DNA from: Marchantia polymorpha subsp. ruderalis
Taxonomy: Eukaryota; Streptophyta; Marchantiopsida; Marchantiales; Marchantiaceae
DNA length: 64,000 nt
Assembly: GCA_037833965.1 (NCBI GenBank)
Contig: AP031356.1
Coordinates: forward strand, 12,980,501-13,044,500
Reading direction: 5' to 3'
Below, in pieces: positions 4,100 to 58,744 of this stretch. The position numbers were made by a program, and so were the translations under genes. Under the pieces are notes generated by a model that was given only the letters and a program-made list of their open reading frames with translations, ran no database searches and had not been told where the DNA came from. The first letter of the stretch is position 1. Each line of letters starts with the position of its first letter.

Positions 4100-5533
4100 C
4101 ACACATCGAATTTGCACACACCCTTTTGAATTGGTGGCAGCGCAGCCAGAGCTCTGCGTGAATTTCGTCGATCGTCGCCACGATTTCTCACTGTGGCGAT
4201 CAAATCCGTTCTCCGTGGGGGTCGTCTCAGGGGCTCCGCACCCAAAGAAAAGAGTCGGTAGGTGACGCGCTTCAGAGTGTCGCAGGTCGGTCTCTATTCT
4301 CTGCTTCTCTCTATCTTTTCCTTCCCCATTTCGTGGACTTGAGATCTGCCCTGGACTTGATCGGCTGCCGGGAGAGATGTGAGTCGTGTGATTCCGTGTT
4401 TATGGATTCTTGTTGTGTTTTTTTACCATGAGGGGATTTTAAGCATTCATTTCGATTCTGTTTCTGGAGACCGACTTCCTTTGTTTTGAAGAATCTGCTC
4501 GAAAATGCTTCCTCTGTTTTCATGCATCCACGTCAGGTTGATTTTCCATCTTGTCTACTCCGACGCGCTCACGCTGATGTTTGTTGTGGACCTAGCTGAA
4601 ATCGGCAGAGTGTGCGATGAGATGCTCATCTTCTATCAAGCATCTCCTTAGGTCTGGCTCTGGCCTTTTTCTCTCTTCAGTGTCAGAACTTAGCTATCCT
4701 GCTCAGGGACGAAGCTTCAGAAGCCTGATGCAATTTCAAGGACAATAAATGATGATGTTTATATCTCTGTTTTCCTGTGGTTGGGTCAGTAAGTAAGAGA
4801 AGCATGTGGTTTGATGTTCTCGTAAAAGGCCAATGATTTCATCATCAACAGGAGCTGAGAAATTTTCTTGAAACATCTTATTTTGACGTTTACACCTTGT
4901 CGAGATCTTTAACATCTCTAATTCCTACTTGATCTTCGAGGTTTGAGGCGAATTTCTATCATCTTATCAACTTCTCTGTACTGGAAGTCAAATATTCAGC
5001 TATGACTTTTTCAATGTCACCGCTGCCAATATCCGGTTAAAATAGCGGTATTGGTGCCCGAAGAATGTAAGCAGAGTATCAAAAGGAGGATACTGAAATT
5101 GAGTGAGACTACTCAATGAAGAGAAGCTCTATAAGAAGATGACACCTGACTTTCCTGGTCCTGCTGCTACTCTGATGTGATTGACATTTTTGAAGAACAG
5201 GATTCAGTACAAATTATGTTCAGTTTCTCGTCAGCATACCCTTCGCTTTGGTAAGCTTTGGAAATAAGTGAAAGTGGTGTTTTCGATGTTTAACTGAAAG
5301 ATTTGCTTCACGTGTCCAGGCCCAGTCTGTCTCACCTCATAGTCGACAACTAAACATCAAGAAAAATGCAAATGTTGAAGGATTACCGGCCATGACGCTC
5401 TTTTATGAGTGTAGTGCGGACGCATTTTCTGAGTAGTCCAGCGTATCAGACTTACGTTTTCGAGCACGTTGAGAAGAGCTTGGCTTTGAAGAAGGGCAGC
5501 AGATTCCTCGTATCAACCCAAACGCCAGTAGCC
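4100..5533 (+). promoter_or_regulatory. probable promoter and leader of the helicase gene
   Basis: Base composition rises to GC-rich around 4120-4380 just upstream of the helicase, as at the other gene starts here. A good donor (GAGAT|GTGAGTC) near 4378 and an acceptor-like CCAG just before the helicase start (about 5528) suggest a leader intron of about 1.1 kb. An in-frame ATG at 5405 would add 43 residues of non-conserved protein, and it would fall within that intron. Transcript evidence is needed to fix the cap site. Confidence 0.4.
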
Positions 5534-8500
5534 ATGGGTGGTGGCGCTGGCCCTAATTCTCAGGGCAGAGGTAGAGGTGGAGGTAGTCGAGGTGGTGGTG
5601 GTGGACGGGGCAGAGGTGGGGGCGGTCGAGGTGGCGGTGGCGGTGGCCAACGTTGGTGGGATCCTGAATGGAGAGCTGAAAGATTGAGACAGATGCGTGA
5701 AGAGGTTTGCAGATTACCCTACCTTGAGCTACTCAATATGTATGACATTTGCCTGATAACTTTCGATAACTGGAGCTGAGATATGTTTTTCTTTTGAACA
5801 GGGTCCTAACGAAGAGCAGTTAGATCAAAATGAATGGTGGGAGCGGCTAGAGCAGCTCAGAGCCAGAAATGATCGACAGGAAGAAATTATCAAAACCAAC
5901 TATGGTCGAGAGGGAGCTCAGCTTCTCGAAGGCATGGCTAATCAGCTCGACCTGTATTTGTAAGTTCATCTTCCTATTTAGGGTTTAATTACAGCATGAG
6001 TGTGCATTTTGTTGTCCTAGATAGCCATATGAGTTCTTGCTCTTTCTCTGACGAGGTTGCCTTTGGATGATGTTGGGAAGGAAGTCATGCATACAACAAA
6101 GGGAAAAATACAGTTCTTGTTGTCAGCAAAATACCTTTACCAAACTATCGAGCTGATCTGGACGATCGCCATGGCTCTTCACAACGTCAGGTACAGCGCA
6201 GTAAAGTTCATTTGAGATCTAGCTTGTTAATGCAAGATAAGAGCTTGTACCATCTATAATTTTTATGTTTTTAATCCTTGAAAATATGTGCAGATCAGGA
6301 TGTCGTCCGATACAGAGAATCGAGTTGAAAATATGTTGGCTGGTATACGCGAGGCAGATGCACATACTGCAGCAAGTCTGCCAAAAGAACCTGAGAATTC
6401 TTCTGTGCAGCCCACAGTGGCACCCTATAGACTCGGTGCAAGAAAGGGTAATCAAACTGATCTGGTGGCACCCATGTCGATGACCCAGATCGACTCAGAA
6501 AAGCTCAATGCAGATTTGCGAGAAAAACAGCGGCGCCTTCAGGTCTGTGTAGATTGTTTATTGCCATTCTCTGAATGCTTGGCTGCTTGAGTAATCCACA
6601 GTTTACAAGCATCTATGAAGGCCAGTATTCCATGGTGGATGTATCCGTTTCTGAGTCATGCTTTTGACAGAAACTACAATTCTTAGTTATACGAAAGAAA
6701 AGAGAGATAAGAAGAGGCAAGATGTTTGGAACTCTTGTCATCACGACATTGGCTGCTCATTGTTCATAAGCTTGGGCAAAGTTTGCCAGAAAAGAAAATA
6801 TGGAAACCGTTACCTCCTCTTTCATCTAAACAGCTTTCTCGAGATACTACACGTACCCATATTTACAAATTCAAGGGGTAAGCAAAAGACATATATGAAG
6901 ATCGAGATTTGGAACTTCTTGCCATGTACCACTTACTCCTTATCAGTTGTGTACAGACACTACCGGCAGTCAAGGCCATGTCTGTCTTCCGAGAGAAGCT
7001 GCCCGCATTCAAGATGAAAGAGGAGCTGCTGCGAGCTGTCGCCAACAATCAGGTACATGCTTTGAAGCTCATGTTGATTTTAGAGTTGGAGCTTGATACA
7101 TATCTGGCAGAAATGGACATGCGTTTTTTAGTATTTAAGGCAAAGGTAAGCTGCTGTTTGTCTGGCCATTCAACAGTATGCCTGTCCTCGGTTTCTTGCT
7201 CAAAAACCTCATGAAAGCTAGGAATCACCCAAACGCTGTTGAAGTCTGATTATAGAGAAACAAGCATGAAATCGCCATCTTCTGACTACCAGTGATCCAA
7301 ATTTCCTGGAGGATGTTCTGTCGGCGTCCTACTTCAGCGCTTGGTACCTGGACTCTTTCGAGCTCCAATACCAACTTCAGGACTGGCTTAACCTTGATCT
7401 TGCATCTAGAGCACGATCTATCTTGTTGTTTAGAATCCTGTTACAGGAGACCAGGCTAGCTCGTGTGAGGCTTATTATAATCTCTACCAAAGATGTGCCA
7501 GCAGGATAAATATGGTACAGGTCTGCAAGGGAGGCCGACAACATGTAAATCTGTTGAAGGTTGTGCCGCAGGCATAACCTTATTGTTTTGTGAGTACATA
7601 GGTCTTGCTGCTTCTCACACCATCCTTCATTAGGACGTCCCAATGCAGCTGCTCGTTGCTTGAGTCTGTCACCAAGGTAACCCTTATAGTACCCATGCAA
7701 TTGGACAAACTAGTGGGCTGGGTATATGCTCTTCCAGACCATGGTTAGTCTGGCAGCTTGCCATTCTTTCTCTCCTTTTGGTATCTATCAAGTGTCTCCG
7801 ATGTGATACTTATTACGCAACATGTCCGAAGAGAATTATGAGAAATCCCGCATCTATCAAAGCCATACCCATTATATCAAGAATTTACATGTAGAATACT
7901 CTTTTGAACCCATAACAGAGCTAGATAATGCAGTGTGAAGTGGCCTTATGACTCTGAATTATTTACTAATTTCTTTGGGCAAGATTTTATAACGTGATTA
8001 CCGGCACTCACATAAAGTGCCGAATCATTTTTAAGTAAAGTGGTATGTTTGTGAAGAATCCACCGAAACTTTGGACGTTGTATCCGGCAGAAAATAGCAT
8101 AGAATTTAGCATTCCAGCAGATGCCAACTATAAGAACAACTTTAAATCGAATATTGGACAACTGTACAAATGAAGCACGAATCCACATATGGTCAAACAT
8201 TGCACCCATGCAGTACCACCGTTGAGAGTGGACAATCGAGATTCGGATGGGGCATAAAAATGCATATGATGTCCGTATTTGAGCTTGTCCACAGTACAAG
8301 AAACTGTAAAGCAATGATATTATGCCGAACCAACTTTCGTCTGGGACCCAAACCACTCTCCTTGTTCTGAAAAGCAGTCTTTATGGATGATATCATTGTC
8401 AATCCTAATTAACGAATGATCTGATACTCTAAAGTATGCGATTTTTCCAACTGAGTTGTGCGTGATAATGCAAATTTTTCGAGGATACTTGAGATGTTGT

Positions 8501-11500
8501 TACACTGGTGAATTGAATTTCATCAAATCTCCTCCTTGTATTGAAGCCCCCAAGAAACCTCATGCACTTCCTTCAACTTGATACTGTGCCGAATTCACTG
8601 ACAATCTGTAAAGTGAATGAGCCTCCTGACGACAATGCGCTGAATACGGTATCTCCTACCAGTAAACTTGACATGTTGCTAGTCAACATGAACAATTTAG
8701 ATTGCGAGAATTTGGACCAGGTCAATATATTGATACCGAGTGGGCAAGTAGAGTGTGATAGCTCATTCGCATGTACGTGAGAAGTATGACATGTGATTGA
8801 ATATTTGACTATGTCGAGGGCGAGGAGGATTCCATCATGTTCTTCCAACAGATTCAGCTGACTTATTTGTCATTTTGGCTACAGGTGGTTGTGGTTTCTG
8901 GAGAAACTGGATGTGGTAAAACAACACAGCTGCCCCAATTTTTGTTAGAACAAGAGGTAGAAGCGGGCCGTGGTTCAAAGTGCAACATTATCTGTACCCA
9001 GCCTCGCCGTATATCTGCCATGTCGGTGGCTGCAAGAGTGGCAGCCGAACGAGGTGATGCTTTGGGGCAAAGCGTGGGGTATCAAATTCGATTGGAGTCA
9101 AAGAGATCGGAAAACACCCGATTGCTTTTCTGTACGACGGGAGTCCTACTTCGTCGTCTGGTATGAACTTTAGTACCATCCCCGTTTCGTTTAGTAGTTG
9201 CGTCGATAAGTTTGGCAAGATGGAAATGTTTCTCGTTCAACTCATAGTCATTGCTATGCACGATTGAGTGAATCCGCAATGACAGTAATTTTGAGTGCAG
9301 TTTCCGGGCTTTCCTCAAACGTTTACAAAAATTTTCTCAACGCTCGGTCAAGGTGCAGGTCTGTGACCTTCAGATTATGACGGACACATACTGATAAGAA
9401 CGTCGTATATTCATATCACGCAGGTTCAAGAGCCAGAGTTAGCGGGAGTCAGTCACGTGATGGTGGACGAAATTCACGAGCGTGGAATGAACGAGGACTT
9501 TCTGCTCATCATATTGCGAGACCTACTTCCACGCCGACCTGATCTTCGTTTGGTACTAATGAGTGCCACCATCAATGCAGAACTCTTCTCCAAGTATTTT
9601 GGCAATGCTCCCATGATGCATATACCGGTAATGGTCATATATTCCTCTTCAAGTGCAGGGCTTAATTTGAAGTGATAATGTATAAAATAAATCTACCGAG
9701 GCCCATCATGGTACTGTCATGAAGTCTTCGCGTACTTGAGATCTTCATTTCGTTAGAAGGTGCAAGTGAAGAAGCTGAGCTCTGCTTGGGTGCCCTTTAA
9801 ATCAAAGAACACTGAAGGCTTTCGTGTTGTGCTGCAGGGTTTTACTTTCCCGGTGCAAGAGCTTTTCCTTGAAGACGTGCTTGAGAAGACTCGGTATAGA
9901 GTAGGTGCAGACCAACAACCCTCTAGCAATTACGGAGGACAAAGACGGAGAACACAAGAGAAGAAGAGAGACCCTATCACTCAGGCTTTCGAGGTGACTA
10001 CACCGTTGCCTCACACTCACAGTGTAGGAGTAGAACTGTAATTGTTTTTCAACCAAATGAACCCCATATCGAGGCGCACCAATTGAGTGTCCGCTGTAGT
10101 TGTGCTCCGATACTTGCTTACTTGCTTCATTTATACGTCCGAGTCCAATTTTATTGTCATAGCATTTCTTTACAAAACTGATGCGATGGTTATGTTTTGT
10201 CTCATGACTTCCTATATTTGGCAGAATGCGGATATTGACGCTGAGTTTCGTCGTTACAGCCGTGGCACTCAGTTGTCTCTGAAGGCGTGGAATGGCGATG
10301 AGCTTGACCTTGGACTGGTATGTTTTTCTTCTACGATGCTCTATGCCTCTTTGATTTGGTAATTGTGTTTTGCGTTTCTCCTTGCTTATAATGATGTTTC
10401 TTTGGATTTCTTAGTCAGGACTCTTGTTAACGGCAATATATTGTGGACGAGCAAGATTAAATGCTATCGAGAAGTTTTGTATCGGGTGCAGTTCTTGTCC
10501 ATGCTGTTCAGTGTTGTGAATCTCATAGCCAAAACAAGGTAATGAGAATTTCTTGATTGGTGCTATGTTTCAGGTAGAGTCTACAATTGAGCACATATGT
10601 GAGCGTGAGAGTGAAGAGGGGGCTTTACTTGTCTTTCTGACGGGATGGGACGATATATCAAAACTTATGGAAAAGCTGAAAGCTAATGCTGCTCTGGGAA
10701 ATGCGAGCCGATACTTACTGCTGCCTTTGCATGGGTCTATGCCTACTATCAACCAGAGGGAAATTTTTCAGCCGCCTCCTCGTGGCGTAAGGTAAACTTT
10801 CACTCCATTTCTAAGTTGCTAGTAGTTTGTTAGCCCATTCGCAAGTCTTTAGTGATAAATAAGGGTCAGGCTCGAAGGGATGTACAACTTCCTTCTATTA
10901 CTACCCCGAGGAGATATATGTGGACTATATGTATGAAGAAAAAAGTAAAATTTTAGTATATGATGCATAGTGTAGAGCATGAACCCTCAATTGTGAAATG
11001 TATTTAAGCACTTGGTCCTTCAAAGTTTTATGGCCGAATTTACTCCGAATACCGTAAGAAGATGTCTTTCGGATTTTAATATTTTGTTAGTATCTTCTAA
11101 TGTCGAGTTCCATGAAGGATTTCTCTCTCATGCTGCATGAACTCCATAATGCGGCTCCTCTGCCCTGTTCGTATTGCCTCCACGTCAGTCATCAACTTTA
11201 CTGTGAACGGGAAGCAGGACCAAGCTCTTGATATCTTAGATATATTGCTAGGCTATCGAACCCGTAAACATGATCAAATAAAACACGACTTCATATTTGT
11301 GTCGTACCTTTCAGTAAACTGTACTTACTATGAGTCCTTCGTGCAGGAAAATTGTGTTAGCAACAAATATCGCAGAAACAAGTATCACAATTGATGATGT
11401 GGTTTATGTGATCGATTGCGGAAAAGCCAAAGAGACCAGCTACGATGCTCTAAACAAGCTTGCTTGTTTACTTCCCTCGTGGATCTCCAAAGCTTCAGCT

Positions 11501-13791
11501 CACCAGGTATATCAACGAAGCAATCTTCGGACTACAATCTTCCTAGCTTTGGATACATGGGCTCTCATGGCGACCCTTTTGGAGTTGAAGTTCAACAAAC
11601 AAGAATGTCTGAGAAGACCGTTGCATAACCCGCAGAATCACGTGATGGTCCAGTTCGTCGCTAACTTTGTGTTTGAGTCAACATGCTGTTGCCTTTTGAG
11701 CTGTTGCCAACCTTCAAGAAATGTTTGGTTTTTTCCAGAGACGAGGTCGAGCTGGAAGAGTTCGGGCTGGAGTTTGCTACCACCTATATCCGAAATTAGT
11801 GTACGATGAGATGCTGAAGTTTCAGTTGCCTGAAATTCTCCGAACTCCATTACAAGAGCTTTGCCTACAAATCAAGAGTTTAGGGCTTGGAAGCATAGGA
11901 AACTTCCTTTCAAAAGCCTTGCAACCACCAGAAGCCATGGCAGTTCAAAACGCCATTGATCTTCTTAAAACCATTGGGGCCTTGGACGATAAGGAAGATT
12001 TAACACCACTCGGTAAATTATTTTGATTGATCTTCCTCATGTTATAAACCGGTAACTAGCACAGACAGACTGGATCACCTAGCCATCTAGGGCAGTCAGG
12101 CTTCCTCTTACGACGCAACTAGTAGCTTTTCGAGTTACATCAACAGAGATACGCTCTCACTTACTAACCAGCGAATCACGTGAAATACTTAGAAGTTCGT
12201 GTACTGGATTTTTTTTTGAAGAAATGCCAGATTTGTCCACAGGATGCTGATGAGCAGTTGGTGCCTCTGTCTACAGGAAGTCATCTTGCGCAGTTACCCG
12301 TAGATCCGAAGGTAGGGAAGATGCTTCTGATGGGAGCTGTTTTTCAGTGTCTGGGCCCGGCACTTACCATCGCTGCAGCTCTGGCTCATCGCGATCCCTT
12401 TGTTCTTCCTATTGAGAGGAAGGAGGAAGCCGATGAATCCAGACGGCGTTTCGCTGGCGACACGCAGAGGTAATATTTATTCTCAAAACATCAGCTTGTT
12501 TTGGACGTACAGAGCTCCATTGTTCTTTAATAGCATTTATCTTGTTCAAAAGCTGTAACAACATGCATATCTTATCCCTTTACCGAAATTACTTTTCAGT
12601 GATCATGTAGCCCTTCTAAGAGCATACGACAGTTGGCAAGCTGCGAAGCGTGAAGGATGGGAGAAAAACTTTTGTTGGACGAACTATTTGTCACCTCCTA
12701 CTCTGCAAATGATGGAAGACATGCGCCGGCAGTTTGTGGATCTGATATCTGATATTGGATTTGTCGACAAGCGTCGACTTCAGGTTAGCGTTTCACCTCA
12801 TCGTTTGATGACGTGTCCGTCCCCAGCATTCATCTTTTTCTAACAGTTCTTGCTCTTGTGCAGGAGTACAATGTATACAGCGGTGATATGGAAATGGTGA
12901 AGGCAGTGCTTTGTGCGGGACTCTTTCCCAGTGTGGTCCAATGTAAGCAACGTGGTAAACGCACCGTTTTCTTCACCAAGGAAGACGGGAAAGTGGAACC
13001 TCATCCAGCGTCAGTCAATGCACGGGTCAACTACTTCCCAGAACCTTGGCTCGTCTACAGCGACAAAGTTAAAACGAGTGGAATCTACGTACGACAATCA
13101 ACCAATCTATCGGATTACGCGCTTCTCATGTTCGGAGGTAGCCTGAGTCCCAGTAAAGAGGGATTCGGAGTCGACATGCTCGATGGGTACTTGCAATTTC
13201 AAGCTCCGGCGAAAACCATCCAACTGGTGCAGGTAATTTACCATCCTAGACGGCAAACCAGTGGAGAACCGAGTGTAGATTCGATATCCTCTCTCTGTCC
13301 GTTCAATTTTAATTAGTCGTTGTAAGCAGCACTACGAAGAGACAGGTCTGAAGGTTCCATCACCCTGTCCTATTAGGGTCAGCGGCTTTCAAGTACCTTT
13401 ACCTGGCCTCTTACCATATTCTCTCTCTCTCTCTTTTGTTTTTCGAATTTCTTCGGCCTCTGGACATGATTCCACTGTCCGTAGATCATTTGCGGAGGTA
13501 CTAAGCAAGTGCTCCTGCATGCTCACTCTTGTGCCCGTTGGCTGGTAACAGGATCTGCGCTACGAGCTAGACCTGTTGCTGGAGCGCAAGGTCAAGGAAC
13601 CGCAGTTTGACATTCACAAGGAGGGCAAAGGAGTCGTAAACGCGGTTTTGGAGCTTCTGCATAGTGGCCAGCGCAAGTCTTATTCTTCTCCATCTTCGGC
13701 CTGGGGACCCGATGACGGCGATCGGGCTCAAGGATCTTCCTCCTCTTCTTCCCGACCGTACCATGGCACCGGCTTCAACTCCAGGCGTTAG
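5534..13791 (+). CDS. DExH-box (DEAH/RHA) ATP-dependent RNA helicase, DExH1/DHX36-like, 16 exons
   Basis: Exons: 5534-5704, 5802-5959, 6085-6190, 6294-6542, 6957-7052, 8885-9160, 9424-9627, 9838-9993, 10225-10317, 10574-10791, 11347-11506, 11739-12012, 12277-12469, 12600-12783, 12864-13232, 13552-13791. All have GT-AG borders and consistent phase, giving 1,048 aa. The N-terminus is a Gly/Arg-rich RGG-like tract (residues 4-38), as in plant DExH1. Visible motifs: Walker [10 protein letters not shown] (266-274), motif II DEIH (367-370), SAT (399-401) and motif [10 protein letters not shown] (629-636). HA2 and OB-fold regions follow, then a Ser-rich tail. DEIH in place of DEAH is normal for the DHX36 branch. 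The family unwinds RNA, and in animals also G-quadruplexes, in nucleus and cytoplasm. The start at 5534 was chosen because GPNSQGRG directly after it matches plant DExH1; the ATG at 5405 adds only unconserved sequence. Every key motif is intact, so the gene looks functional. Confidence 0.95.
7053..8884 (+). other. large intron 5 of the helicase gene
   Basis: This 1.8-kb intron separates the segment ending AVANNQ from the Walker A exon. It is several times longer than the other introns of the gene. Its small open frames carry no recognisable domain and no element ends were found. It could be an older insertion too decayed to read. Confidence 0.8.
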
Positions 13792-18474: not shown

Positions 18475-19176
18475 TCACAATTGAGAGAGTGCATTGGAGT
18501 TCATCATCTTCTTGAATTCTTTGAAATCTACTTGGCCGTTACCATCTGCATCAACGCTTTCGATCATCTTTTGGCATTTCTTCAGACTGTTACCCTCTGG
18601 CATCCCCAGGTTGACCAAGACCTTCTGCAATTCTTGAGCGGTGATGTATCCGTCTTGGTCTTTATCAAAAATTTGGAAGGCGTCGAGGAGGCTGTCATCC
18701 TCGTCCTCAGGTGCCTCGTCCTTCTCAGGCGCCACACCAGTTATTTGCTGGTACAAGGAGTAGAATTCATCAAAATCCACAGTACCATCCTCATTGTCAT
18801 CTACTGTTTTGACCATGGCCTGAAGATCTTCCTCGGACATCTCGAAGCCAAGCTTCTCCATGAAATGCTTCAGCTCATCGCTGCAAATGACCCCGTCCTT
18901 GTTTTCGTCCAATTTCTCAAACACTCTTCTCATCTCGGCCTCGTCAGGGACTTGCTTCGGAGGTGTGACTTCCTGCGAGCCCGTCATCTCCGCACTGCTT
19001 TTGTCGCCATTCAAGTCCACAGCGGCAAGTGAGTTGGAGATTTCTACGTCCTCGACGGCCGGGGTCGCTGCAGGGGGCGCTGTCTGGGGCGCTGTCTCAT
19101 TGGCACCAGTACTTTTGGACACAATAGATTGATAATACCACCTCCGGTCGAATAAATTGAAAGGAAATTTACTCAT
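18475..19176 (-). CDS. calmodulin-like protein with four EF-hands (CML)
   Basis: A single exon encodes 233 aa. After a hydrophobic/aromatic N-terminus (FPFNLFDRRWYYQ) and an Ala/Pro/Thr-rich linker to about residue 80, there are four canonical EF-hand loops: DENKDGVICSDE (90-101), DDNEDGTVDFDE (126-137), DKDQDGYITAQE (171-182) and DADGNGQVDFKE (209-220). All have Asp at position 1 and Glu at position 12, so four calcium ions could bind. The acidic linker between hands 2 and 3 (about 150-161) is longer than in calmodulin. The layout resembles plant CML3/CML5-type proteins, whose N-terminal extension can direct membrane association; that is inference here. The Met at 19176 was chosen as the second of two adjacent Met codons; 19179 or 19188 are equally possible, and an open frame reaches 19278. 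It acts as a calcium sensor, with unknown target. Confidence 0.9.
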   Translation of the reverse strand: MSKFPFNLFDRRWYYQSIVSKSTGANETAPQTAPPAATPAVEDVEISNSLAAVDLNGDKSSAEMTGSQEVTPPKQVPDEAEMRRVFEKLDENKDGVICSDELKHFMEKLGFEMSEEDLQAMVKTVDDNEDGTVDFDEFYSLYQQITGVAPEKDEAPEDEDDSLLDAFQIFDKDQDGYITAQELQKVLVNLGMPEGNSLKKCQKMIESVDADGNGQVDFKEFKKMMNSNALSQL

Positions 19177-19730
19177 CATACCCTCCATGCTCGCACGCAG
19201 CAGACACTGGCTTTCGTGCCCGAGCAGGCACAGCGAGACAGAATGATCCCCTGCACCCGAAGAAATAGAGCCCGTCACGAGGAAAAGGCGTCACGAACAC
19301 TCACTTCCGAGCAATTGGCGCGAGCAGCTACGGGTCCGAACTCGAGCATTCTCCGAACGAGCTGTGAGCAAGTCTCTCGCCGAAGGAATGTCGGACAGGA
19401 CAGTGCACCAGAAACATAATTCTGCGCGAGAGGAACCGCAATTCTGCGCCAGATTCTCGGCCCGAGCGCGATGTCGACGAGTTCGGCAGAAAATCAAGAA
19501 GAAGCTCGTCCCGGCCTCGCCAGGCGCGGAGGACGACAACGGGCCACCCGACGCGATGGATGATGGAGCGTCTGAGCAACGGGCATGCGTCGCGCGGCTG
19601 CTGCTGCTGCTGCGGCGAGAGGGCGAGGGCGAGGAAAATCTAAATAGGCGACGAGGCGAGGCGCGCGGCCCTACGACAACTTGCTAGCTCAGCTCGACAG
19701 CCACTGACCCGCGGCTTTCGAAACTCACCG
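19177..19730 (-). promoter_or_regulatory. GC-rich leader of the calmodulin-like gene with upstream ORFs
   Basis: If transcription starts about 30 bases below the TATA box near 19.76 kb, the leader is some 550 bases long. It has two overlapping upstream ORFs on the minus strand starting at 19579 (83 codons) and 19539 (82 codons), and a short CTG-type repeat near 19600. A leader intron is possible and would remove some of this. Confidence 0.4.
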
Positions 19731-40607: not shown

Positions 40608-41558
40608 CTCTAACCTCGATAATGTCATCATTGTTAATATAACACCTTGATATTGTCACCTAAAAGTTTGAAACCAATTTTGCTAGTGTAAAACTCCCTC
40701 GTTATTATCAGTATCACACTCAAAAATATCATTATTTTTTTCCAAAATTTGTAATGTAAGTGTGATAATATCAAGTATGGATGGATTATATGTGAGTGTT
40801 GGATGGACATATTGTAGCAACAAAAAGTTCATGAGCCGCCCTGTGATAAATGAAGTGCTATACAGTCATGAGTTGCCCCTTGCACCAACCTTGATAAGTG
40901 TTGATGATTCAAAATTTCAGTTTGGTGACCATTTGCTCATCAACATTGTGTCTTTTCCGTTTATCTTAACTACGAGTACTCACATTGCATTGCACTCAAA
41001 GAAAGATATAGTGTTTCACAAATATGCTAAGGATTTTTAGAATTTTATAGCTAGCTAAAGTTTTCAATTTTTTAACCGTCAAGAGTTGTTAATAGTGAAA
41101 AAATATATTATATACTAGTTACAAATAGTGTTGGACATTTAACATTACTAAAACAATGTGACATAGTAAATTTCTTTGTTTCTAGTGAGAGTTTTCTATT
41201 GGATCTCAAGAGTTGTTAATAGTGAAAAAAGTATATTATATACTAGTTACAACTAGTGTTGGATATTTAACATTACTAAAACAATGTGACATAGTAAATT
41301 TCTTTGTTTCTAGTGAGAGTTTTCTATTGGATCTCAATGAGACATTATGATATGTTCTTGTTGTCATTCATAGTTTTGAACCTTCCATTTGTTATGTTCT
41401 TTTTGACGCCGTAATGTTATCTTGATGTTTTACACTCTTTTCTCATATCACATTAAGCACAAATTATTAAAATGAGACTTCAAAAAAAAATGTCAAACCT
41501 TGTTCGTGTCACACTTTATATGGTGAAACGGAGGGTGTGATAACATCGAGGTTAGGTT
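40608..41558. mobile_element. inverted-repeat DNA element (second family)
   Basis: The left end TCTAACCTCGATAATGTCA (from about 40608) and the reverse complement of the right end, CCTAACCTCGATGTTATCA (to about 41558), match in most positions. They resemble pogo/Tigger terminal repeats (CTCGATAAT type). Inside are an open frame of 92 codons (40762-41040) with no recognised domain and a 127-bp tandem duplication. No intact transposase was seen. Confidence 0.5.
41080..41334. repeat. 127-bp tandem duplication
   Basis: 41080-41206 and 41207-41334 are two head-to-tail copies. They differ by one inserted G and a few substitutions. The high identity implies recent duplication within the surrounding DNA element. 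Confidence 0.95.
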
Positions 41559-42075: not shown

Positions 42076-44528
<2,453 letters not shown>

Positions 44529-48580: not shown

Positions 48581-48823
48581 GAATTCACCCTATTCCGCTC
48601 GAGGACGAGAGGAGAGAGAGAAACTGGAGCGTCGGACCGCGTCTTGCGCTTGGGCCCAGGGGGTCGTTGTACTCGTTGTGCGGCTAAACTCGGCACCTGG
48701 AAGGGTCGATCGGTTCAGGCGCTGCTGCTGATTCTTGCGCTGCGCTCCATTCCAGTCCCATTTCAGTTCAGTTCAATTCAATTCAGTCGCACTCTTGTGA
48801 AGATCCCGGTCGATTGATCGAAC

Positions 48824-50416
48824 ATGGCTCACAACCCCTCGCACCTCATGCCCTCCGGTTGGTGTCGCTGCTCTGTGTCCGTCTGAGCTGCTTTGGTTTG
48901 CTGTCTGTGGGCATTCTTGGGCGGAGTTTGGCCGGCCAAAACTTTGGATGTGGTGGTCGCCTGCACTGCCGCGCCAAATTTTGATCAGTTGTGTGTTGTC
49001 GCTGTTGTCTGCAGAGCTGATTGACCGGTGCATTGGCTCGAAAATATGGGTGATCATGAAGGGTGACAAGGAGCTGGTCGGGACTCTGCGCGGTTTTGAC
49101 GTCTACGTCAATATGGTGCTCGAGGATGTGACAGAGTAGTGAGTACTATGGGTAGAGTGCCCTGCTCGTGAATTTTTTTAAATCTCGAGGCTGGACTGGA
49201 AATTAATTAACCGAAGTGCATTTTGCTGAGATGGAATATTTTAGTTCTTTGGTAGCTACCTCTGCATGAACTCAGATAACGCCCAAGTCTGGTCGAAGTC
49301 ACATGCTTTTCGTTTCAGCTCCGAACAATGTGTGGAAACTGTTCTCAATTACGCGAATGTGCGCATCATCATGAGTTGCGCCTGATGGATTTTTTTTGAC
49401 CACGGAATTCAGCAGTTCTTCTGCTCAGCTTCAATTGGAGTGATAAGCTGGTTTGATCACTCCAATTTCTTAAACTAGGTGTCAAATGACGTGGTGTTCA
49501 CTTTGAATGAGCTCCAGGTTTATGAGAAGCCTGCCCCGTGGCACTATTCAGCTCGTAGGAATTTAGGGCACCTGATCTCATCTTTTGTTTGTTCGCACAT
49601 TATCACACAGTTAGTCTCGCCTTCCGAGATATTGTGGCGTACCTTACCTTATACCGACTTGAATCAGACTCGTATTCTCTTACATTATTCAGTCATTACC
49701 AATATCCTCTCCCAGTGTCACTGCAAAAAGCATCGACGCATAAATCGAAGATTGTTCTGATGATCTAGAGGTCAAACCTCGCTTACTACAGTGCGATTAT
49801 TTTTGCAATAACCTCACATCAAGGTCTCCATTCCCTTCTATGTGTGCACTTTCGGTTCTAATTTAGTTTTTGGTTGGCAGTGAAATAACTCCCGAAGGAC
49901 GCAGAATAACAAAGCTCGATCAAATTCTTTTAAACGGGAACAACATTGCTATAGTAAGTTAGGTTTTTCTATGTTGGCAGTTATGCAGGTTTCTTAAAAG
50001 CACTTGCTGTTTAAGATTAATGAGTATTACTTAAGGGCCAGCTTAGTTTGGAAAATATTAAGCAATTTGGTTTTACAAAGTGCTGCAACTCGGTGAAATG
50101 AACAGACACATGAAAGCTTCAACCCGTTTCATTGTCAAGTTTTTTCTTAGTTTGATCGGAAAAGTTGCTGATGCAGAACAGAGACTTGATTGAGTTGATA
50201 TTTGCTAGACTTTTGGTGCACATACTGAAGATGGATTTTAGGAGATTGAGCTTTCTCAGTGCTTCTTTGAGGGTCGTCTATAAGCTCGAGACGTGATAAT
50301 TGAAAAGTACGTGCTAGTTTTAGACTATTTTTAGTTTCGTCCATCTAATTTTCAGACCCTAACCCTACTTGCCGTTATACTCCTCGCAGCTTGTTCCTGG
50401 AGGAGGTCCTGAATGA
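48824..50416 (+). CDS. LSM5: U6 snRNA-associated Sm-like protein LSM5, 4 exons
   Basis: Exons: 48824-48857, 49015-49138, 49881-49953 and 50390-50416, giving 85 aa in phase, against 88 in Arabidopsis. The Sm1 motif covers [20 protein letters not shown], then [15 protein letters not shown]. The Sm2 motif is [20 protein letters not shown]5 is a subunit of the LSM2-8 ring, which binds the 3' end of U6 snRNA in the nucleus, and of the LSM1-7 ring, which promotes decapping of mRNA in the cytoplasm. The start [15 protein letters not shown] matches the family closely. The last exon encodes only eight residues plus the stop, an easily missed micro-exon. The gene is preceded by a GC-rich leader region (48590-48820) with a TTCAG/TTCAA-type short repeat. 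Confidence 0.96.
49433..49467. repeat. inverted repeat in LSM5 intron 2
   Basis: AATTGGAGTGAT and ATCACTCCAATT are exact 12-base arms around an 11-base loop, inside intron 2. Confidence 0.7.
50356..50368. promoter_or_regulatory. telomere-like repeat near an intron end
   Basis: ACCCTAACCCTAC sits about 20 bases before the acceptor of the last LSM5 exon, in the polypyrimidine region. It may serve as part of that tract or be an interstitial telo-box. No further role is shown. Confidence 0.4.
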
Positions 50417-51871: not shown

Positions 51872-53470
51872 TTATTGACGTGAAAATTTCCTGGGTGGGT
51901 CAAAGACATATCGAGAAACACCTCCTGTACGACCTTCATCGTCACCGGACTCTCGGGATTCTAGCTGATCGGCATTTAAAGTCTCCAAAACGTTAGAATC
52001 TGCTCTACTACTCCTGCGCACGTCAAAATCGTATTGTACACTATCTGCTATCCTCCTATCCTCTACAGTTGAGGCTGTCCTCTCAAGGTGAGGCTGCTCA
52101 TTGCCTACATTCTCTACCGTCTCAAGTCTTCCTTGGCCTTTTCCGGACGTGTTTGATGCATCCGGTCCGGTCTTCGGACTGCGCATCTTTGTCTGGCCAT
52201 CTAAAACTTCAAACCTTCCGGCGTCATCCAACTCAGTATGAAGTTCCGCTGGATCCTTCAGCTCTCCGGGTACACTTTCGTCTTCAGACACATCTATCAT
52301 CTCGACTAGAACGTCGGCATAAGGAGGCGAATCATCCTTAGCCGATCGCTCTCCCACGTTGTGGACATCCGTGAACCGTCTCCTTCCATCATGTGCGTGA
52401 GCATCAGTTGACAGTCGAGAAGGGGATCGTGATTGTGATCGTGATCGTCTACGATCTGCTGAAGCAGAGCTCCGTCGACCATCACCTCGCGTGTCTTCAT
52501 ACAGCACGTTGTAGTGCCGTTTCTTGTCTTCCTTGCTGAACGGGACGTTTCCAAGCATCGCCGGCTGCGATTTCGATCCCCAGCATGCAGCTAACGACCT
52601 CCAGACTCCTGATGCTGGAGCCGGAGTCGGACTAGGTTTCCTCCGAGGGGTAGCAAGTTCAGCCGGTTCCAAGCTTTGCACCTTCACTCTGCGCTTCTTG
52701 TTTGGTACCTTCGGGGCTTTACCTTTGCCCTTCGTAGATTCGGTTTCTTGAGGCGATTTCTTTTCGATTTCTATCTCCGGCGGAGACAATACTGCTTTAT
52801 TCGTATCGGCAGTCGAAGTGGACGCGGTTTCTGCGCGGAGAGCTGGAGCTGGTGCAGGGGGTCCAACTGAAATGGAAGGATTATCGGTTTGTAACGCATT
52901 GGTGGACGGTACAGCAGGAGGAACTTGGGAAGTGGAAGGAATATCAGAGGGTAGTGCTGGAGCAACTTGTCCTTGGGAAGTGGAAGGAATATCAGAGGGT
53001 AAAGCTGGAGCAACTTGTCCTTTCGAAGTTGAAGGATAGTCAGTAGGTAAAGTTGGAGGGAATTGCTCTTGGAGCTTTTCTTCCCGACTTCCGCTTTCCT
53101 CATAGTCCAGGACTGTAACCACCCGTCGAGCAGCTCCGAACGGAATCAGATGATGCTCCAGCTGCTCTCTCTCGGCCGAGCTACTACGAGGTCGCTTCAT
53201 TGCTTCCATCTTCTGCTTACCATGCCTTCTGGCAATGGTTCGTCGTCTCTTTGCGCCCGGTCGATGAGGTGTTTGATAAACAGGCGAAGGTCTGCTCCAG
53301 GGGGCTTTCATGGGACATATCGATCTCACCGGAGCGATATCTTCGGGCTCTCCAGGAGAGGTAGTTGAAAAACACCGAACTGCAGGTTCTATACCCATTT
53401 CCTCGTCATGTGGTATGTGCTGTTTAGATCGCTGTAAAATTTCAGTCTCCAGTTCACGCCTTCTTTTGTT
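51872..53470 (-). CDS. long disordered Ser/Pro/Arg-rich protein, 3' terminal exon, family unknown
   Basis: An uninterrupted 532-codon frame begins exactly at a good acceptor (CTTGGCCGTTGCAG) with no ATG at its head, so an upstream exon is expected between 53480 and the tetraspanin end at 54382. I could not place it. The first internal Met (about residue 23, MGIEPAV) is an alternative start. The protein has several basic patches (NKRRREL at the head, AKRRRTIARRHGKQK, PNKKRRVKV). There is a repeat of about 19 residues, LPSDIPSTSQGQVAPA, in two to three copies, and an RS-rich segment RRRSRSQSRSPSR. The C-terminus is acidic and ends DPPRKFSRQ. Two or more nuclear localisation-like patches suggest a nuclear, possibly RNA-related protein. 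No catalytic domain is visible. The length of the frame against stops in the other frames argues that it is real. Confidence 0.6.
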   Translation of the reverse strand, partial: NKRRRELETEILQRSKQHIPHDEEMGIEPAVRCFSTTSPGEPEDIAPVRSICPMKAPWSRPSPVYQTPHRPGAKRRRTIARRHGKQKMEAMKRPRSSSAEREQLEHHLIPFGAARRVVTVLDYEESGSREEKLQEQFPPTLPTDYPSTSKGQVAPALPSDIPSTSQGQVAPALPSDIPSTSQVPPAVPSTNALQTDNPSISVGPPAPAPALRAETASTSTADTNKAVLSPPEIEIEKKSPQETESTKGKGKAPKVPNKKRRVKVQSLEPAELATPRRKPSPTPAPASGVWRSLAACWGSKSQPAMLGNVPFSKEDKKRHYNVLYEDTRGDGRRSSASADRRRSRSQSRSPSRLSTDAHAHDGRRRFTDVHNVGERSAKDDSPPYADVLVEMIDVSEDESVPGELKDPAELHTELDDAGRFEVLDGQTKMRSPKTGPDASNTSGKGQGRLETVENVGNEQPHLERTASTVEDRRIADSVQYDFDVRRSSRADSNVLETLNADQLESRESGDDEGRTGGVSRYVFDPPRKFSRQ

Positions 53471-54381
53471 CTGCAACGGCCAAGAGACAGGTTGAGATTT
53501 GCTGGTTTATCTCTGAATCTTATTGATGATGGTCGAACGTCGTGAGAATCGACTTAAAGTAATGTGGCCTTTTCACCATATGGTCAGATACAGACGAGTG
53601 AAATAGACTAATTAAGAGGCTGAATAGATAGTCACTAAAATGTTTAGTCGGAGTGAAAGGAGAAGCGATGCTATGTAATTACTCAAGCATCAACTGGCAG
53701 TTTACTTCACTCAACAGAGTAAAGTAGACTAAACACCTTCATTAGTCTGTCAAAGGTAACTTTTAGTGAACATTCATTAGTGAACTTTTTAGCAGACCTA
53801 TTCTGGAAAGTTCATAAGGTGATCAACTCTTTAAGATGGCAACGGCCTTGGAACCTAGATGACCGACCATGTAGGAAAGATCGAGTCCTATAATAAATCA
53901 CATGGGACGCCGATGAGTTATAAACAACTTTCGATGCAAACTTCTATCGTGCTCGGTGATCATTCGTGAAGGTTGTGCAAAAGCAGCTGGTGAGGTTCAT
54001 CAATACGCTTTGTGCATCGTGAAAGCCTTTAGTAACGTGAGTGATTCCGTAACCTTGCTTCCTACAACGCCAGCCAAGTTAATGTTTTAGATACTAAGCA
54101 GCATTATATTTGTTTACTACATTTTATTTCATTTTGTTCTATTTGTTAGCTACATTCCTCATTACGTGGATGATCTTATCTTTTCACTGCATTCCACTAC
54201 CGGTTTACTTCACTGAACCAGTTCACGTATATACTGTAGTCGCTGACTTCAGTTGTGACACGCACCACCCTGCTATGAGACGAGATTTAAAGAACTGTAA
54301 AGGAAAAAGTACACTCTGTAGAAACAATCTCATAAGAATATGCACAACTTCTCAGAAGGTAAGAGAAAAGGAGCGCACGAG
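53471..54381. other. gap between disordered-protein exon and tetraspanin stop
   Basis: This should hold the first exon and promoter of the disordered-protein gene and the 3' end of the tetraspanin. No coding exon could be chosen with confidence. GTTTAGTC/GACTAAAC-type inverted motifs occur at about 53640 and 53730. Confidence 0.4.
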
Positions 54382-57300
54382 TCACACTTTGGAGTACTGA
54401 GCTCGTGATGCGTTGCGTCGTGCACAGCAGCCGACTGTGTATAACGCGACCTGCCAAAGAGATGCAAGAAGGAAGAGTTAAGGTCTCCATGATTTCTCCA
54501 AACATCTTCGTCAGGGCATAATCACAAGTGTGAAACTGGTTTCTACAGCGGACGTAATGAGCGACTGCGGAGTTTATACACACTGTTTATCTCTTGATGT
54601 GATTCAAGACTACTCCCGAATGCCCCGAAATTAGCCCATAGGACAAACCTCATGCAGCGGCTCAAAACGCCCTAAGTATGAGAGATAAAGCTTGAACATC
54701 TGGGTAAGTGCCCAGTAAGTAAGGAGGAAAGAGGTAAACGTGTTGGAGACTCACAAGAAATAAGAGAACGGCAATGTTGATTATTGCAACCAGGCGCCAA
54801 TCCTTTTTGATAAATTGCGCGACCCCAGCCCTGAACACAAGACTCCTGGTCAGTGGATAAGCTCCTCTTGACAATGCATATGCTGACCATAGGTATCTAG
54901 ACATTCCTTTTCGAACTATGTGAGAGCACGGTTTTCGGCTGATATGTTTTCCCAGTTTCAGCATTAGCACAAAGGGCTGGACCTGGCACCAGATGTACTC
55001 TAGCCTTTGATCGCGCTAATCTAAGTCGACAATGCCTGCTAGTGACACCGTCTCATCCACTTGCTAGGATGTAAAATGTTCTGGTAAGTGATATCTTCTC
55101 TAGCAACTTTATACACTTGTGGGAGAGAACAGACATGCACACAACTTACTTGCAGGAATCACACTCGAAGCACATAGTATCTGGATCGTTCTGATAAATA
55201 ACGCAGTCTGGATCATCGTAGTGTTTAATCGGAGATGGAGCAGCGTCATGTTGAACGAGTGTTGAAGAAACGTTTATGGTTTTAACCCTCCGGACTTTCA
55301 GTTGAGCTCGTGGAGGTTGTCTGGAACCGGAGACAGCCGCGAATTTGACGACTGGAGCAGCAGGGGTGGCACCAGCTGGAGGTGGTTCATCAGGTGGGGT
55401 CGAATCAGGAGGAGGAGGAGGTTCATCTGGTGGAGTGGAACCAGCGGGAGGAGGAGGTTCATCAGGAGTGGCACCGGCAGGAGGAGGTGGTTCATCTGGT
55501 GTGGCACCGGCGGGAGGAGGAGGTTCATCTGGTGTAGCACCGGCGGGAGGAGGTGGTTCATCTGGTGTGGCACCGGCGGGAGGAGGAGGTTCATCTGGAG
55601 TGGCACCTGCGGGAGGAGGAGGTTCATCTGGTGTAGCACCGGCGGGAGGGGGAGGTTCATCTGGTGTGGCACCGGCGGGAGGAGGAGGTTCATCTGGTGT
55701 AGCACCGGCAGGAGGAGGAGGTTCATCTGGTGGAGTGGAACCAGCGGGAGGAGGAGGTTCATCTGGAGTGGAACCAGCGGGAGGAGGAGGTTCATCTGGA
55801 GTGGCACCGGCAGGAGGAGGTGGTTCATCTGGTGTGGCACCGGCGGGAGGAGGAGGTTCATCTGGTGTGGCACCGGCGGGAGGAGGAGGTTCATCTGGTG
55901 TAGCACCGGGAGGAGGAGGTTCATCTGGAGTGGCACCGGCGGGAGGAGGAGGTTCATCTGGTGTGGCACCGGCGGGAGGAGGAGGTTCATCTGGTGTAGC
56001 ACCGGGAGGCGGAGGTTCATCTTGTGGAGTGGTACCCCAGGGAGCTAGTGGAGTGAAAACGGTGGGAGTAACTCCATAGGGAGGTGTTGGTTGAACGGGA
56101 TTGAAACCCAGAAAGGAACTTGTGTTACCGGAAATTCCGGTAACATTCGATTTGCCTATAGAGACCGACGACGAATTGGTTTGCACATATCTGCTTGATA
56201 AGTCGTAATACGTTGCGTTTATCATGGGGAATTTGCACCTGCAAGTAAAGACATTGCAAATAATCTTGTCACCTTAGCCGTAGTTTCCACCCAGTGGATC
56301 ATTTCCTCAGTGTATCCCACTTCCCGCAATGCTACTTAACAGCACCCAATCTGATCTTCCAACTCTGACTACACAACCATTATATGGTACTTACTCCGAA
56401 GGTGGACGGCAACAGCCCGATTGGATAGAGTTCAATTGTCCACTTTTAAGATCAGCTACTGACTGAGAAATCACGGCACAAAAGATTTCAACATCAGCTT
56501 CTGTTATGCAAACATGAGATATAAAGAGACATGCATAAAATTTCATTTCATATGCAAATCTTTTGACAAGTAGTACGCAACTCACACTATATGTCCTGCC
56601 TATTTCTGCGCAATAGTCGGGATTCAACAAGCAAGCTCGCAGATGTTTCCAAATTTGATGATTATTGAACTGCAGAAAATTTTAGAAGTTAGTCCTTGTT
56701 AGACGTGGAATCTTGATCGACTATATGAATCATATTCACTATAAGGAGTGCAATAAGCTTTGCTGAGGGGTAACAAGCTGATTATACCTGGTAATAAAAG
56801 AAGGCGACTGACCACACCTAGCACATAGAATTCGACTTGAATCACTAGTACTAAAACAAAGAAGACGGCAATACTTACAAGTTTCCGGATGTATCCAGAA
56901 TAGTCAGCAAGTCTGTATTCCTCAAAACTGTTTGTCGAACACCAAGAGTTTAAAAATTCAGTTGTTACCCAATCATTTGATTGATGCAAAATGCCATTTT
57001 AATGTGAATGTTGCTGGGGTATTGAAGCAATTAAAAAGCCAAAAAAGTGAACCCACCCTTGCCCGCTTATAGCACGGCCAGCTCCCTCGTTGGTAATAAC
57101 AAAACTGCACACGGAAGTCAAATTTCGTACTGAATCAGTTTCAGCATCTTAAAGACGCCGTGGCTTCGTTAGCTAATGAAGACGTCAATCATTTGACGAA
57201 TATCGTCAATTTCAGCTCCTGCCCATGAAGGCTACAAGCTGTTAGGAGCAGGTTTGAAGACGAAAGGAGATCTATATATAGAGATAAGGATCTTACGCAA

Positions 57301-58744
57301 ATGCTGTGAAAAGAGCAAGACCTGCAAGAAGAAAGAACATAATAACCAAGTACTGTGAGGAGCAAGTTAAGGATGACATTGAAGAGTCAGGATAGAATTG
57401 ACCTCTTCTCAGAACTATTCGAACGTTATTTCAGAGCCGTTCGAGTGTTTTTCTCCAGGAGCTAGCATGCTTCTATAGAAGTTCGAAATTAACTACTTTA
57501 AATGTTGCTTTGCTTATTTCATGACCAATCCCTCAATGTCCTCTTCGGGATGCAGTACATGAAGTTGGAACCCATCCAACAGTATTGATTGTTAGTATTC
57601 TCATAGAGAAGAGACATGCTTTCGTCAATTAATTTACCGTCCTCTATGCTATTACGGCAATCGACTAGAACGAGAAACGTTTTGAAGTCCAAATTGTTAC
57701 ATCAAACATGCTATATGGAGGATACGATCCATAAGAGCCAGGCGATATCCTTCCAAGATCCCACAAAACCCAACAAAGATCTGCATCGAACGAGAAAATT
57801 CAGTTAATCCATAGCCTTTTCCAATTATCATAAGTTGATCTAACAAGGTTCTTCCAGAAACCACTCGATCAATCTCTTCAAAAGGTTCAGCGCCGCCTCG
57901 CAAGTCGTGCAAGTCTCTAGATGACTTATACAGCTTTCAAAGAATTCTTTGAGCCATTGAGATAAGCCAACGAGTCCACGGGTCATATCTGATAATGAGG
58001 AACTGTGTGACTAATACAGCATACACACACTCTTACGCTGTTTGTAGCTGATAGGAACTACTATTATATCTCCTAGCACACTCAAAGGCAGAAAATCACT
58101 AGATTTGCAAGGTACTATTGTAGTAAAAGGAAGGTTACCATGAACAACTCTCTCCGGATTTTTTGCAGATAGTATTCTTGTTCACAAGGAATAGAAGCCC
58201 CGATACAAAAACAGGGAAGCTACAGATAAAAGAGAACCACCATTGCTGAAGTATAAACTGAGCAGTGAATGGAAGAGAAACATGCAGACGCTAGAATCAT
58301 TGCCGCAGTTTAAAAACAGCTGGAGTAAGTTAACGTGCCTGTGCAAAGCGCCGAACATATCTAAAAATTGAAACATTATTGTTTGTTTTAACTGTTAATG
58401 ACAGTGATCAAATGGGAGAAGTCTCACATCAGAAAAACAAAAATTCCTACTATGATGACCGGCGCGGTCAGAAATTCGTCGCAGTCTCCATGCTTTGTGG
58501 AGAGCCATATGCCCAATCCAAGAACACAGAAGGAAACACCCTGACACACGAAGCATGCATGTTAAAAAGCTTGGTAGATGGTTTAGCTCTAACCTGGACT
58601 TAAAACAGTTAAGGTAGCAAAATTGTGTCACGAGATACTTCTAATACGGTGTACAAATCGAAGGGTTTCTTTCTCTGTTGTGAAACCTACCAGTGTGAGA
58701 AAGTTAACCCACTTGATGATAAAGGAGCTGACACCATAACCCAT
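54382..58744 (-). CDS. TET10-type tetraspanin with a proline-rich repeat insert in the large extracellular loop, 11 exons
   Basis: Exons: 58744-58691, 58540-58428, 57780-57726, 57352-57297, 57104-57057, 56927-56879, 56669-56586, 56462-56395, 56238-55150, 54830-54755, 54450-54382. All are GT-AG and in phase, giving 586 aa; plant tetraspanins are usually about 270-285. TM1 is near 8-32, TM2 45-63, TM3 70-97 and TM4 about 552-574, with tail GCCARRNA. The plant loop signature GCCRPPSEC is at 169-177, followed by NATYYDLS. Further cysteines are at 521, 532, 535 and 538 (MCFECDSCK), so the disulfide framework is kept. The extra mass is one exon: residues 249-468 are about 20 copies of DEPPPPAGATP, flanked by Ser/Thr/Pro-rich linkers with five N-glycosylation sites (183, 197, 207, 214, 498). 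Tetraspanins organise plasma-membrane microdomains. Contiguous prolines in the secretory path may be hydroxylated and arabinosylated, giving a rod-like, wall-facing domain (inference). The family match is to Arabidopsis TET10. Confidence 0.93.
55362..56021 (-). repeat. 33-bp coding minisatellite in the tetraspanin gene
   Basis: About 20 tandem units, mostly 33 bases (30 or 36 in a few), encode DEPPPPAGATP with variants GATP, GSTP, GSTPP and PPDSTPP. All length changes are multiples of three. Units near the 3' end of the array are the most diverged. The array lies wholly inside exon 9. Several other frames across it are open by virtue of the repeat and are not separate genes. Confidence 0.97.

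Follow-up and report, generated by a model that had tools for sequence, protein, structure and literature searches.

A probable TET10 tetraspanin of Marchantia polymorpha with a proline-rich insert in its large loop

A tetraspanin gene of Marchantia polymorpha subsp. ruderalis codes for a large loop that is interrupted by a 325-residue insert with a proline-rich array of 220 residues. The gene lies on the minus strand of a 64,000-nucleotide stretch of contig AP031356.1 (the window), which corresponds to C7:12980501-13044500 of the genome used for our searches (241,466,482 bases in 9 contigs; the searches score the best candidates only). Our preferred reading, to which we assign a probability of about 0.55, is that the gene is the Marchantia TET10, whose variable sub-loop gained a disordered-looking insert that would act as an outward spacer. 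Papers are cited by their PubMed Central numbers and, apart from PMC8792609, through excerpts of the open-access text, to which the statements drawn from them are limited.

Results

The gene encodes a plant tetraspanin

An exon-by-exon rebuild gave a gene that runs from an ATG at 58744 to a stop at 54382, in 11 exons of consistent phase and with GT-AG borders at all introns (10/10). Its coding sequence of 1761 nucleotides, stop included, encodes a protein of 586 amino acids, which is matched by the Pfam family PF00335 (Tetraspanin) with an E-value of 3.2e-27 and 96.1 bits compared to a curated cut-off of 32.1. Membrane segments were called from hydropathy alone, and the runs give four of them (residues ~7-33, 37-66, 65-99 and 548-576), the second and third touching each other. 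The GCCRP motif was found at residues 169-173, nine cysteines in the large loop (138, 145, 170, 171, 177, 521, 532, 535 and 538) and a single one, Cys38, in the small loop. In plant tetraspanins, a GCC(K/R)P motif goes with nine cysteines in the large loop and one in the small loop (PMC8927881, PMC6705802); the PF00335 match, the four membrane segments, the motif and the cysteine set of this group are all present here. The isoelectric point of the whole protein is 4.35, and a search against solved structures returned weak tetraspanin matches alone (UPK1B, E=0.047; TSPAN15, E=0.75). The rebuild arrived at the same coordinates as the original prediction, made from the letters alone, which had described an 11-exon, phase-consistent gene. 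The four membrane segments, the GCCRP motif and the loop cysteines that it had named were recovered in the hydropathy runs and residue positions, and so was a tetraspanin with a proline-rich array in its large loop, here at residues 249-468.

The gene model comprises the following parts.

54382..58744, minus strand: whole tetraspanin coding span, 11 exons, 586 amino acids (gene model, PF00335)
58691..58744, minus strand: exon 1, start of the first membrane segment
58428..58540, minus strand: exon 2, end of the first membrane segment, small loop with the single Cys38, start of the second membrane segment
57726..57780, minus strand: exon 3, end of the second membrane segment, intracellular loop
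57353..57725, minus strand: intron 3, phase 0, at LLWI|Y, with U12-type signals (donor and match to TTCCTTRAY)
57297..57352, minus strand: exon 4, third membrane segment
57057..57104, minus strand: exon 5, start of the large loop
56879..56927, minus strand: exon 6, large loop, EEYRLADYSGYIRKL
56586..56669, minus strand: exon 7, large loop, Cys138 and Cys145
56395..56462, minus strand: exon 8, SGCCRPPSE motif
55150..56238, minus strand: exon 9, 1089 nucleotides, with CKFPMINATYYDLSS, the insert and DDPDCVIYQNDPDTMCFECDSCK
54755..54830, minus strand: exon 10, AGVAQFIKKDWR, fourth membrane segment
54382..54450, minus strand: exon 11, end of the fourth membrane segment, GCCARRN tail, stop

When scored as an ordinary intron with a generic splice matrix, intron 3 had the worst donor of the gene (-5.9). 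Its donor reads GTATCCT, and close to its end ATCCTTAAC matches TTCCTTRAY at 8/9 positions and is followed by 13 bases to the end of the intron. In the other nine introns the match to TTCCTTRAY was 6/9 or 7/9. The consensus of U12-type introns has ATATCCTT directly at the donor border and TCCTTAAC 10-15 bases upstream of the acceptor (PMC2426677). With GTATCCTC in intron 3 and TCCTTAAC near its acceptor, and with the GT variant of the donor allowed, the intron carries these signals of the minor spliceosome, which explains its poor score as an ordinary donor. For plant tetraspanins, no mention of a U12 intron was found in the available open-access literature, among the matches listed.

The intron number points to TET10

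The orthologues of TET10, that of Marchantia included, have 10-12 introns (PMC6705802, 2019). In rice, ten of the 15 tetraspanin genes have one intron, but the AtTET10 homologue OsTET14 has 10 (PMC4675852). The gene in the window has 10 introns, as TET10 orthologues do, and we therefore assign it to TET10, of which it is very probably the Marchantia orthologue. Most likely the gene has already been noted in print as the many-intron TET10 orthologue of Marchantia, and the insert is the new part. A TOM2A-type tonoplast tetraspanin was considered first and was dropped in view of the number of introns and of what is published on TET10. AtTET10, OsTET14 and PvTET10 share with the Marchantia gene the plant tetraspanin frame and the GCC(K/R)P motif, as well as the 10 introns in the case of OsTET14 (10-12 in the clade). 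The Marchantia gene differs by its 325-residue loop insert, of which the available text of PMC4675852 and PMC6705802 makes no mention. Concerning localization, PvTET10-GFP of bean is reported to label vesicles and, at the tips of root hairs, the apical plasma membrane (PMC6705802); reporters of AtTET10 were also located to the plasma membrane (PMC5394113). In moss, PpTET6 is found at plasmodesmata, whereas PpTET3 has an even distribution at the periphery (PMC10049917).

A second clear tetraspanin is encoded in the genome at C4:7493805-7494937 (270 amino acids, one phase-0 intron before SGCCKPP). It is 46% identical to the protein of the window (118/259 aligned positions, insert left out) and the loop cysteines of the two align. 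However, its loop is free of an insert and has 138 residues, compared to 459 in the window protein; this agrees with the earlier statement that the insert sets the latter apart from the compact loop of plant tetraspanins. When the genome was searched with the PF00335 profile, two matches were obtained, both of them exons of the C4 gene. The gene in the window was not among them, presumably on account of its short exons, and other many-exon tetraspanins may have escaped in the same way. Further weak matches were obtained on C5 (E=0.27; E=0.05) and C6 (E=0.03).

The insert is long, charged and found at this locus

Exon 9 measures 1089 nucleotides, compared to 48-113 for the other ten exons. Of the nine loop cysteines, the fifth (Cys177) and the sixth (Cys521) are separated by its insert of 325 residues, and the large loop has 459 residues with it and 134 without. 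The site falls in a region of the tetraspanin large loop that is called variable (PMC5394113). Three segments make up the insert.

56022..56192, minus strand: N-side linker, 57 amino acids, Ser/Thr/Pro-rich, with Asn-glycosylation sequons at 197, 207 and 214
55362..56021, minus strand: proline-rich array, 220 amino acids, 20 units of the DEPPPPAGATP type
55218..55361, minus strand: C-side linker, 48 amino acids, basic

The charges of these segments are approximately +2, -41 and +7, respectively. The array (residues 249-468) consists of 47% proline and has an isoelectric point of 4.05. Most of its units are 11 residues long (14/20), three have 10 residues and three have 12; units that lie 10 apart are slightly more alike than average (0.81 compared to a mean of 0.73). 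In the Uversky comparison of charge and hydropathy the array lies on the disordered side (0.362, boundary 0.48), and the insert as a whole looks intrinsically disordered. As a polyproline helix the array would extend over at most ~68 nm, enough to enter the wall.

No second copy of the array was found in the genome among the best-scoring candidates, the 13 exact pattern matches and 4 search matches all being at this locus. The N-side linker likewise matched itself only, among the best-scoring candidates, and no Rfam match at gathering scores was obtained in the 64-kb window. A repeat family or a part of a transposon was rejected on these grounds, array and N-side linker matching their own locus alone among the best-scoring candidates. 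We also do not favour an assembly artefact, because the units differ from each other at silent sites and because the v7.1 assembly of M. polymorpha has a quality value of 82.9 (PMC13078153). A tetraspanin of such a design was not found in the available open-access literature, among the matches listed, which agrees with the original prediction, whose author knew of none.

The template strand of the array (55363-56026, plus strand) contains GGAGGAGGAGGT blocks, with 19 non-overlapping blocks of four GG. Sequences of this four-GG pattern can form G-quadruplexes. The G-rich template blocks may explain how the repeat grew.

The array is probably translated

Among the 14 equal-length units of 11 amino acids, 7/11 third codon positions vary as opposed to 1/22 first and second positions (Fisher p=0.0005). 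All 20 units give 8/11 and 3/22, respectively (p=0.0014), when the 12-residue units are cut to their first 11 codons and the 10-residue units are aligned by hand. Without two CpG columns the 14-unit set still yields 5/9 third positions compared to 1/22 others (p=0.004). Silent differences among these 14 units amount to pS=0.218 and amino acid differences to pN=0.005 (pN/pS ~0.02); codon pairs with two differences, three in all, did not enter the counts of changes.

An open antisense frame also runs through the array and, as worked out by hand, has its third positions on the same bases as the sense frame. The position test alone therefore does not choose the strand, and it is the linkers that do. 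In their 57 and 48 codons no stop occurs in the sense frame, while each of the other five frames holds 1-5 stops in each linker. An antisense gene over the array is ruled against by the stops in all three antisense frames of the linkers. Since variation is almost confined to third positions and no frame of the linkers but the sense frame is open, the array looks translated, and going by these sequence patterns it is probably part of the main product.

By composition, the array resembles an acidic arabinogalactan-type spacer

Filters for arabinogalactan-proteins (AGPs) use a Pro/Ala/Ser/Thr share of 50-55% or 35%, depending on protein length (PMC3149072). This share is 73% in the array and 45% in the whole protein, and the array holds 20 [AST]P dipeptides. 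Taken by itself, the array would pass such a filter, and it would at most be a chimeric AGP domain; by composition it resembles an acidic arabinogalactan-type spacer. Hydroxylation of the prolines in ...ATPDEPPPP... is uncertain. A charged residue adjoining a proline disfavours its hydroxylation.

Chimeric AGPs and proline-rich tandem repeat proteins also combine a folded domain with a stretch rich in Pro, Ala, Ser and Thr. The bryophyte chimeras named in the available text of PMC12209756 are plastocyanin-, fasciclin- and xylogen-like, with no tetraspanin among them, and the Marchantia array is unlike chimeric AGPs in that Asp-Glu breaks each of its units.

Discussion

Alternative explanations for the array

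Splicing could remove the array. An exitron is a part of a coding exon, bounded by GT and AG and in frame, that is spliced in some transcripts. Exon 9 was scanned for such stretches with a generic splice matrix, whose frequencies are not fitted to Marchantia. With a lax cut-off, taken from the lowest-scoring true sites, 132 in-frame GT-AG pairs were obtained, and about 8 of the 10 pairs that span the array, among the matches listed, remove it entirely. The product was translated for one pair alone.

55208..56128, minus strand: candidate exonic intron, 921 nucleotides, GT-AG, in frame (splice-site scan of exon 9)

The original prediction had called the array extensin-like, and a covalent anchor of the extensin type would make it a hydroxylated, cross-linked rod that tethers the membrane to the wall. 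Like extensins, the array repeats a proline-rich unit in tandem and contains stretches of four consecutive prolines; it would face outward by topology, and Marchantia has AGPs together with two putative prolyl hydroxylases related to AGPs (PMC12209756). A partial extensin-type (EXTD) sequence is reported from M. polymorpha (PMC3149072). Extensins, however, are highly basic and have Ser-Pro4 repeats and the tyrosine cross-link motifs YxY or VYK (PMC3149072). The whole insert contains 0 SPPP, 0 YxY and 0 VYK; the array is acidic instead of basic (isoelectric point 4.05, charge ~-41), has neither tyrosine nor lysine for cross-linking, and is embedded in a membrane protein. The main text of the paper on the Marchantia wall proteome does not contain the word tetraspanin and gives no support for a wall-bound form (PMC8792609). 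The label extensin-like was therefore given up, and we regard an anchor of this type as highly improbable.

Some observations weigh against the outward spacer. The margin by which the whole insert lies on the disordered side in the Uversky comparison is modest (0.398, boundary 0.449). In addition, removal of 56128-55208 is predicted to give a 279-residue tetraspanin that keeps every cysteine and has an ordinary loop, and the donor score of this stretch (0.9) is reached by 8/10 true donors compared to 10/245 decoy GTs. The stretch could accordingly be an exonic intron, so that the usual product would be a plain 279-residue TET10 and the form with the array would be minor or conditional; an eleventh intron would still be within the 10-12 of the TET10 clade (PMC6705802). 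Its acceptor is weak, though, as the score of -0.7 is reached by 64/224 decoy AGs next to 9/10 true acceptors. Moreover, in the linkers the sense frame alone is open and T is scarcer than in the introns, and the variation limited to third positions suggests that the array is, or was, translated, which leaves this explanation unlikely. We place at a similar level the possibility that the array is a neutral minisatellite, a coding repeat that grew in a tolerant sub-loop with no particular function. The tandem units of 10-12 amino acids are near-identical, the 19 non-overlapping four-GG blocks of the template may promote slippage, and this sub-loop is where tetraspanins vary (PMC5394113). On the other hand, a pN/pS of ~0.02 in the 14 equal-length units means that amino acids were held and silent sites changed. 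Homogenization of the copies could contribute to this pattern, but alone it would not spare first and second positions.

Possible role of the insert

In the preferred reading, a TET10 with an outward spacer, the insert would, if translated, in all likelihood face the cell exterior or lie in the lumen of secretory vesicles, judging from tetraspanin topology. The head framed by cysteines would fold and traffic like that of any plant tetraspanin, and the insert would protrude as a loop from its tip, forming a spacer that is hydrated, negatively charged and partly glycosylated. Such a spacer could keep a microdomain off the wall and might engage the wall and Ca2+ through weak, multivalent interactions, the basic C-side linker being a possible pectin-binding end. 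That the insert makes functional contact with the wall is a tentative idea, which we consider doubtful. It is improbable, though conceivable, that the loop is an acidic, glycoprotein-like brush in contact with the wall and that splicing of the exonic intron toggles between brush and plain forms, thereby coupling the microdomain to the wall or releasing it.

Other features of the window

Directly downstream of the tetraspanin gene, a stop-to-stop frame of 544 residues (51872-53506, minus strand) had no Pfam match at E 0.01. It includes a 48-nucleotide tandem repeat at 52924-53058, which is read as repeated ...LPSDIPSTSQGQVAPA.... In an AT-rich stretch at 41079-41337, two tandem copies of a 128-nucleotide unit match at 97%. 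A helicase-type gene is found at 5396-13313 (plus strand), with OB_NTP_bind above and a DEAD match below the cut-off; in our reading its glycine/arginine-rich start at 5396, which has no Pfam match, is joined to the later helicase-type exons. The window also encodes a calmodulin-like protein with four EF-hands (18478-19290, minus strand), a ribosomal RNA adenine dimethylase split into three or more pieces (42079-44528, minus strand) and an LSM protein (48801-49136, plus strand).

Significance for tetraspanin biology

The gene has most likely already been noted as an orthologue, and the interest therefore rests on the insert alone. Tetraspanins organize membrane microdomains, whose coupling to the wall in plants is a standing question. 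Use of the exonic intron would make the gene a simple example of splicing that decides whether an extracellular, disordered domain is present. Should the insert be translated and face outward, the protein would join, by natural fusion, a tetraspanin and a wall-glycoprotein-like part, in a plant that is genetically tractable.

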